From an uncultured Archangium sp. (GTDB lineage: Bacteria; Myxococcota; Myxococcia; Myxococcales; Myxococcaceae): 64,000 nucleotides of DNA. Shown here piece by piece: positions 41,840 to 47,088 of this stretch; position 1 is the stretch's first letter; the number at the start of each line of letters is the position of its first letter. Below the pieces are notes generated by a model. That model worked only from the letters and a program-made list of their open reading frames with translations. It ran no database searches and had not been told where the DNA came from. The translations under genes were made by a program, and so were the position numbers. The stretch spans positions 62,001 to 126,000 of the forward strand of contig CAIVGN010000097.1 of NCBI GenBank assembly GCA_903905455.1. Direction: 5' to 3'.

Positions 41840-42457
41840 GTGGCCACGTCGAGACCCCGAAAAAAGCGCGAGACGTACCACCATGGAGATCTCTCCAACG
41901 CGTTGGTCGCCGCCGCCATCGATCTCCTGAGCACCGGGGACGCGGAGCAGCTGACCCTGCGCGAGATCAGCCGCCGCGTGGGGGTCAACCACCGGGCCGT
42001 CTACCGCCACTTCGCCGATCTCACCGCGCTCCTCGCCGCCGTGGCGGAGCAGGGGTACCGGCAGCTGCTCATCGCCCTCGAAGCGAGCCTCGCCGGCGTC
42101 AAGCGCGCGGGCCCCGAGAAGCGCGTCGAGGCGCTCGCCTGCGCCTACGTCGCCTTCGCCCTGGATAACCCGGCGCACTACCGCATCATGTTCGGCCGCC
42201 GGCTCAACGAAGACGGGCGCTTCCCCGTGCTCGAAGATCTCGTGCAGCAGGCCTACGTGTTGATCGACGTGGAGATGGGCGCAGGCATCGAGCAGCGCCG
42301 GTTCATCCAGCGCCCCCGACGCGAGCTCGTCTTCGCCTTCTGGAGCCTGGCGCACGGCTTTGCCAGCCTCGCCCTCGTCGCCCGCATCAACGTCAAGCGC
42401 ACGTTGGTGGAACCCTACGTGCGCCAGATCGTCGCCCCGTTCATCACGGGGCTCTGA
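41840..42457 (+). CDS. TetR/AcrR-family transcriptional regulator
   Basis: 205 residues starting at GTG 41840. The N-terminal TetR helix-turn-helix is clear: HHGDLSNALVAAAIDLLSTG then LTLREISRRVGVNHRAVYRHF. The C-terminal half resembles the WHG/TetR_C_33 domain (YVAFALDNPAHYRIMFG, FWSLAHGFASLAL). The recognition helix residues VNHRAVYRHFAD are typical. No divergent efflux or enzyme gene lies next to it, only the tRNA, so its target cannot be guessed. The promoter of the tRNA must lie within or next to its 5' end. Confidence 0.93.
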   Translation: MATSRPRKKRETYHHGDLSNALVAAAIDLLSTGDAEQLTLREISRRVGVNHRAVYRHFADLTALLAAVAEQGYRQLLIALEASLAGVKRAGPEKRVEALACAYVAFALDNPAHYRIMFGRRLNEDGRFPVLEDLVQQAYVLIDVEMGAGIEQRRFIQRPRRELVFAFWSLAHGFASLALVARINVKRTLVEPYVRQIVAPFITGL

Positions 42458-42468
42458 GTCACTGGTGT

Positions 42469-43047
42469 TTAGCGGCCCGACTTCTTCTTCGCGGGCGCCT
42501 TCTTGGCCGCGACCTTCTTGGCCGCCGGCTTCTTCGCCGGGGTCTTCTTGGCGACGACCTTCGCCGTGACCTTCTTCGCGGGGGCCTTCTTCGCCGCGAC
42601 CTTCTTCGCCGGGGCCTTCTTGGCCGCGGCCTTCTTCGCCGGCGCCTTCTTGGCCGCCTTCGTCGCCTCGGCCGCTTCGTCGGCCTCGAGATCCGCGCGG
42701 ACCCCGTTCATGTCGAGCGCCGCCACGCCGGCGATGATCTCCTCGAACTCCTCGGCGGTCATCAGGCCCTCTTCGCTGGCCACGAGCACGCCATCGCGGA
42801 TGGCGACGATGGTCGGCATGACCTCGATCTCGAACTCGTCAGCCAGCGCCTCTTCAGCGTCGACGTCGACGCGCCCGAACATCACGGTGCCGTGCTTCTT
42901 CGAGGCCGCCTCGAAGATCGGGGCGAACTCGCCGCAGGGCGCACACCACGTGGCCGTGAAGTCGATGAACAGCGTGCCGCCCTTCTGCACGGTCGCTTCG
43001 AAGTTCTTCTCCGTCAGGGTGATCAATCCAGCCATGTCGTTGCTCAT
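42469..43047 (-). CDS. Thioredoxin-domain protein with histone H1-like Lys/Ala/Pro tail
   Basis: 192 residues if started at the ATG complementary to 43045-43047; a later ATG (43035) and an earlier GTG (43083) are possible. Residues 6-110 are a thioredoxin fold with the redox motif WCAPC (Cys35, Cys38) and the cis-proline in EVMPTIVAI. After a Glu/Ala-rich linker, the last 60 residues consist of repeats of KKAPAKK, AAAKK and VAAKK, ending KKKSGR. This composition matches histone H1-like bacterial tails (AlgP, Hc1, myxobacterial nucleoid proteins) that bind DNA. No signal peptide, so it is cytoplasmic. The combination suggests a thiol-disulfide enzyme held on DNA or another polyanion; that is inference. 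Confidence 0.88.
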   Translation of the reverse strand: MSNDMAGLITLTEKNFEATVQKGGTLFIDFTATWCAPCGEFAPIFEAASKKHGTVMFGRVDVDAEEALADEFEIEVMPTIVAIRDGVLVASEEGLMTAEEFEEIIAGVAALDMNGVRADLEADEAAEATKAAKKAPAKKAAAKKAPAKKVAAKKAPAKKVTAKVVAKKTPAKKPAAKKVAAKKAPAKKKSGR

Positions 43048-43095: not shown

Positions 43096-43380
43096 TCAGC
43101 GTCGACCCTTTCGCGAAGGTAGAACGACACCTTCAGCCGCCAACCGCTTCGCCTGCTCGCCTTCCACCTGCGGAGCCAGGGTGCCGTCGCTGCGGATCAC
43201 CCGCCACCACGGCGCACCCGTCAGGCTGTGCAGCGCCCGCACCACCGCCCGCGCCGCGCCCGGCTTGCCCGCCCTCAGCGCCACCTGCGCGTAGCCCGCC
43301 GTCTTCCCCTCAGGGATCGCGCGCACTGCCTGGTCGACGGCCTGTTGCCACTCCGTGAGCGGGGTCTTGCGGGTGGTCAT
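43096..43380 (-). CDS. Alkyltransferase-like (ATL) DNA-damage-binding protein
   Basis: 94 residues, the size of free ATL proteins, corresponding to the C-terminal domain of O6-alkylguanine-DNA alkyltransferase. The helix-turn-helix part (AIPEGKTAGYAQVALRAGKP, then ARAVVRALHS) is intact, but the active site that reads PCHRV in the repair enzyme is PWWRV here (57-61). The acceptor cysteine is therefore replaced by tryptophan, as in ATL proteins, which bind alkylated guanine and pass it to nucleotide excision repair without repairing it. The gene is divergent from the lipoprotein gene at 43472. Confidence 0.9.
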   Translation of the reverse strand: MTTRKTPLTEWQQAVDQAVRAIPEGKTAGYAQVALRAGKPGAARAVVRALHSLTGAPWWRVIRSDGTLAPQVEGEQAKRLAAEGVVLPSRKGRR

Positions 43381-44800: not shown

Positions 44801-46999
<2,199 letters not shown>

Positions 47000-47088
47000 G
47001 CGGGAGATCTCCGACAGGAACCGTCGTGGTACTGAACCGGCCGCCCTTAGCTCAACTACCGGGCGTGTATCAATGAACGGCTGTCACT

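Follow-up and report, generated by a model that had tools for sequence, protein, structure and literature searches.

A thioredoxin with a lysine-rich pentamer tail and an acidified enzyme domain in Archangium

Thioredoxins are enzymes that reduce disulfide bonds. Tails rich in lysine and alanine are known from other bacterial proteins, such as Hc2, which consists of lysine-rich pentamers of two basic residues with mainly alanine and also valine, threonine and proline, and which binds RNA besides DNA (PMC2848022). AlgP, which carries a KPAA tail, has been found with polyphosphate granules (PMC9239181), and polyphosphate is bound by lysine-rich stretches, with the tested positives having 9 lysines in 20 residues together with four consecutive lysines (PMC12077175). 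The PASK motif is defined by 75% D/E/S/K within 20 residues (PMC12345225). Among thioredoxins, Drosophila Deadhead binds DNA non-specifically via charge (PMC7924233). We analysed a 64,000-nt stretch of DNA from an uncultured Archangium, hereafter the window, in which a single gene joins a thioredoxin domain to a tail of the Hc2 type. A preliminary description of this gene knew of no characterised protein with the layout, and in agreement with it, no description of a bacterial thioredoxin with a lysine pentamer tail was found in the literature.

A thioredoxin domain and a basic tail in one gene

The tailed thioredoxin gene (42469..43047, minus strand) encodes 192 residues from an ATG at 43047 according to the open reading frame call and translation. 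Alternative in-frame starts are present at GTG 43083 and ATG 43035, and alignment indicated that a tailed relative in the congener genome G052 and a paralogue in the same genome as the window both begin at the equivalent of ATG 43035. Residues 9-105 (42733..43023, minus strand) were identified as a thioredoxin domain by PF00085 (E 1.1e-21, 77.2 bits against a Pfam cut-off of 23.5), AlphaFold2 and Foldseek; the modelled core had pLDDT values >90 (about 95-98), the Foldseek matches were solved thioredoxins, and the score against the equivalog TIGR01068 was 80.1 bits, below the curated 96.8. Translation and alignment with E. coli W31-C35 located a WCAPC active site at residues 34-38 (42934..42948, minus strand), and the buried aspartate D29 (E. 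coli D26) and the cis-proline P78 (E. coli P76, in MPT) are also present. The PF00085 score, CxxC and cis-proline together place the protein in the thioredoxin fold family. With the catalytic residues intact, we infer a candidate disulfide reductase, and a family match showed that the same genome encodes a member of the thioredoxin reductase family.

Beyond the domain, the AlphaFold2 model contains an extra C-terminal helix at residues 113-134 (42646..42711, minus strand), at the start of which lies the LDM motif of the thioredoxin subfamily (residues 111-113), conserved in homologues. This is followed by the basic tail of KKxxA pentamers (residues 129-192; 42472..42663, minus strand), which has a net charge of +26, a composition of 39% lysine, 34% alanine and 9% proline, and a length of about 58-64 residues, with predicted disorder from about residue 135 (AlphaFold2 pLDDT about 55). 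Tandem Repeats Finder resolved the underlying DNA into 15-nt units (11.7 copies, 73% matches), and because these units encode a KK-x-x-A pattern, with A, V, T or P at the variable places and third bases that vary synonymously, the array is not a product of chance. The synonymous differences among units further suggest that the amino-acid pattern of the tail has been kept. Aspartate and glutamate are absent from the last 64 residues, and the composition falls within the definition of Hc2-type pentamers, namely two basic residues plus A/V/T/P and no acidic residues (PMC2848022), with the HC2 models remaining below their curated scores (PF07382, 32.3 vs 40; NF038053, 33.4 vs 80; NF038052, 26.4 vs 135). 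The thioredoxin with intact WCAPC and the H1/Hc2-type tail of the preliminary description were thus both confirmed.

The preliminary description suggested that redox state or lysine acetylation might regulate the tail, in which no cysteine occurs. The lysine density of the tail rises to 9 in 20 and its longest lysine run is three, KPM-type stretches being characterised by at least three consecutive lysines and high lysine density, and D/E/S/K content in the tail peaked at 10/20, so that no PASK motif was identified. A promoter scan at the gene returned nothing, and two terminator-like sites were detected there, one of them within the tail repeats. As had been described, no signal peptide was apparent by eye in the 192-residue protein, which looks cytosolic from its sequence.

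Distribution, origin and gene neighbourhood

Homologues at E<=1e-20 were found in 127 of the 145 genomes of the order, and besides the window and G052 the tail was absent from homologues in all order genomes examined; those untailed subfamily members that were translated terminate about 6-28 residues past the domain. The search across the phylum that the preliminary description had proposed, carried out in 195 genomes with a profile that included the tail, recovered the architecture in G052 and nowhere else, with scores of 372 bits for the window, 308 for G052 and <=147 for all others. Absence of the tail from all close relatives, named at the outset as evidence against the first interpretation, was nearly what we observed: one of the five other congeners (G052) has a tailed relative and the other four have matches to the untailed paralogue only, two of these four being at about 80% completeness and several of the compared genomes being fragmented. 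Scanning contigs with the full tailed protein yielded no relative, scanning them with a two-sequence domain alignment yielded 80 loci, none with a K/A tail by regex scan, and a viral scan gave one weak match.

The tail itself is widespread. K/A/P pentamer arrays were present in 47 of 59 genomes of the family, with reversed-pattern controls near zero, and an exact-codon search found KKxxA arrays on several further genes of the window's own genome. Reading the open reading frames around matches in G000 and G052 showed that a wide range of proteins carry K/A/P extensions, including unrelated ones confirmed by Pfam (AHSA1, DUF4261 and glyoxalase) and others assigned by reading only (Topoisomerase I-, Obg-, RsfS-, Rho-, SWIB- and valyl-tRNA-synthetase-like). 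The rare feature is the pairing of a thioredoxin with the tail, and the tail itself is not unique. Because similar tails occur on so many other, unrelated proteins encoded alongside it, the earlier proposal that the tail marks a nucleoid redox enzyme does not hold in that form. A sigma-70-like open reading frame in the window (46907-47026, minus strand) starts with a lysine-rich stretch, so that a further protein linked to nucleic acids bears a basic extension. In the same thioredoxin subfamily, L077 from an uncultured Myxococcales (bin-20748) has the C-terminus HHHGDDDNCGGGCGGCGGGCGGH (His, then Gly/Cys), possibly a metal-binding tail; since this protein also ends oddly, the C-terminus of the subfamily seems prone to unusual tails.

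The tailed G052 thioredoxin (160 residues; L014 1504-1986, minus strand) ends in KKKPVAKKKAVVKKPVAKKKAVAKKPVAKKK. Its domain is 57% identical to that of the window protein, and at about 57-62% identity this relative retains the tail, although the pentamers are made up differently. At the active site the sequence is DCEFC, with loss of W31 and G33-P34, and the buried aspartate D26 is replaced by phenylalanine, which suggests that its redox chemistry is altered or lost, so that disulfide reduction may not be the function shared by the pair. The degraded active site of the sole tailed relative counts against the earlier redox-enzyme reading as first worded. A tree built from 62 domains joined the two tailed proteins in a fast-evolving pair (100/99, stem 0.64) nested inside an untailed clade of the family (100/95), and an untailed paralogue (L002, 45% identity) is retained in the window's own genome. 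This arrangement fits a duplicate that diverged fast and gained a tail: an untailed thioredoxin found across the order would have duplicated in or before the genus, evolved rapidly and then acquired a tail of the Hc2/AlgP type.

Upstream and co-directional lies an alkyltransferase-like gene with an O6-methylguanine methyltransferase DNA-binding domain (43096..43380, minus strand; PF01035, E 1.3e-18), and a convergent TetR-family regulator (41840..42457, plus strand) flanks the slot that contains the thioredoxin gene. An evident TetR homologue, identified by reading, occurs in G052 L243, where an alpha/beta hydrolase-like open reading frame stands between it and the alkyltransferase-like gene in place of the tailed thioredoxin seen in the window; the tailed gene of G052 lies elsewhere, near his genes. 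Since the G052 interval holds the hydrolase-like frame instead, there has been turnover of genes at this site. We rejected an operon that would include the alkyltransferase-like gene, because the adjacency was missing in G052 and at the examined G051 locus, which had a different neighbour. The alkyltransferase-like gene is a neighbour and no conserved partner, and gene context differs between the two genomes.

Charge of the enzyme domain and possible roles of the tail

The preliminary description overlooked the strong acidity of the enzyme domain. Splitting the window protein at residue 128 gave -20 for the domain and +26 for the tail (net +6), compared with -13 and +17 in G052 and -6 and +2 in the paralogue from the same genome. 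Over residues 8-120, domain charge was -15 in the window protein and -13 in G052, against -3 to -9 (mean -6.0, sd 1.2) in 34 untailed relatives, figures that are descriptive, as the relatives are not phylogenetically independent and the tailed side consists of two sequences. This acidification of tailed thioredoxin domains is a new observation. Acidic gains common to both proteins fall at positions 40, 66, 70, 71, 75, 92, 93, 100 and, in a poorly aligned part, 123. Several were placed, in E. coli numbering, by alignment to the E. coli thioredoxin sequence (all minus strand): at residues 39-40 (GE; 42928..42933), aligned with K36/M37, a glutamate is gained and a basic residue lost beside CxxC (AE in G052, R-A in the paralogue); E75 (42823..42825; R73) is a basic-to-acidic change three residues N-terminal of the cis-proline; and E92-E93 (42769..42774; K90-V91) are gains by the groove loop, the latter two changes also being present in G052. 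The E. coli equivalents K36/M37, R73 and K90/V91 border the substrate groove. The cores of other tailed proteins are also acidic (-24 to -1), and two small G052 proteins with no Pfam match, L229 and L233, have acidic cores of -17 and -24 with basic tails of +21 and +18.

We favour, with a probability of about 0.5, the prediction that the tail tethers the enzyme to an intracellular polyanion, be it nucleoid DNA, RNA/ribosomes or polyphosphate. The disordered tail would hold the enzyme on the polyanion and concentrate reducing power locally, and the acidified enzyme surface would offset the charge of the tail; Drosophila Deadhead is a precedent for a thioredoxin that binds DNA by charge (PMC7924233). 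Against the tether stand a net charge of only +6 for the whole protein, so that the tail could be masked by the acidic domain, the small number of tailed sequences (two), the DCEFC site of the G052 protein and the different gene neighbourhoods in the two genomes. DNA binding, which the preliminary description had assigned to the tail, is retained here as one candidate among others, given that AlgP is found on polyphosphate granules (PMC9239181) and Hc2 also binds RNA (PMC2848022). Within the polyanion tether, a polyphosphate-granule or RNA/ribosome client in place of nucleoid DNA is tentative and somewhat unlikely: the granule association of the KPAA tail of AlgP (PMC9239181), the polyphosphate kinase encoded in the genome (PP_kinase match) and the RNA binding of Hc2 (PMC2848022) all speak for it, as does a lysine density like that of tested binders, but the longest lysine run is three against four in those positives (PMC12077175), and the D/E/S/K maximum of 10/20 falls short of the 75% of PASK motifs (PMC12345225).

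A role for the tail would be largely dispensed with if AAG/GCG repeats had simply lengthened a short charged C-terminus in a tail-prone, GC-rich genome, the acidic domain then keeping the protein soluble. Short K/A/E-rich ends already present on untailed homologues, the different odd tail of L077, and pentamer arrays that are frequent across the family with the pairing in only 2 of 195 phylum genomes are consistent with such near-neutral expansion. We nevertheless find it doubtful, as the tail has been retained in two proteins whose domains are just 57% identical, its units vary synonymously and both proteins share a strong shift in domain charge. That shift also bears on a distinctly unlikely reading, in which the cationic tail folds onto the acidified surface close to the catalytic site and holds activity down until a polyanion releases it. 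The opposing charges of domain (-20) and tail (+26) favour intramolecular contact, no other domain in the subfamily is as acidic as those of the tailed pair (-15 and -13 vs -3 to -9, n=34), the shared gains at 40, 75, 92 and 93 adjoin CxxC, the cis-proline and the groove loop, the basic residue at 39 is lost, and a precedent exists in Drosophila TrxT, whose flexible C-terminal extension wraps the core and for which active-site shielding was hypothesised by its authors (PMC7924233). However, only these four of the nine gains are placed by the groove, so the shift may reflect general charge balancing; other tailed proteins likewise have acidic cores, the AlphaFold tail is of low confidence with no sign of packing, and the charge difference lacks phylogenetic independence. 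If a polyanion competed for the tail, a gated enzyme would be active only where polyanion is dense, and a polyanion-switched thioredoxin of this kind, its acidified active-site face covered by the tail and reduction confined to the nucleoid or granules, seems to us quite improbable. Were the tail to tether or gate the enzyme, the protein would show in simple form how a low-complexity tail and the charge of its enzyme can evolve together.

Comparison with known systems

The closest relatives are the untailed LDM-motif thioredoxins of the order, such as L002, which share the fold, the region of the extra C-terminal helix and, for L002, 45% identity, but mostly have WCGPC followed by a basic residue, domain charges of -3 to -9 and no long tail. 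Like the window tail, Hc2/HctB of Chlamydia and BpH1 of Bordetella consist of lysine-rich pentamers with two basic residues plus Ala/Val/Thr/Pro (PMC2848022), yet they are without an enzyme domain, and the window tail misses the HC2 cut-off (32.3 vs 40). AlgP and PhaF of Pseudomonas likewise combine a folded N-terminal part with a long K/A/P repeat tail, fragments of which bind DNA in the case of AlgP, and differ in having KPAA tetrapeptides and a helical N-terminus with no thioredoxin.

Chromatin-linked thioredoxins are represented by Drosophila Deadhead and its sister TrxT, which are from animals and not from bacteria. The disordered C-terminal extension of TrxT modulates activity (PMC7924233), and the window extension is also modelled as disordered (AlphaFold2); a lysine pentamer array is not reported for TrxT. 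Deadhead carries its charge on the fold itself, whereas the window fold lacks such a positive surface, being acidic (-15) with its basic charge entirely in the tail. The wider point is that a large variety of unrelated proteins in the family have acquired lysine pentamer tails, and a genome that encodes both a tailed thioredoxin and its untailed paralogue provides a clean natural comparison for tail function. Should the tail tether or gate the enzyme, the window protein would be a bacterial counterpart of the chromatin-linked animal thioredoxins.
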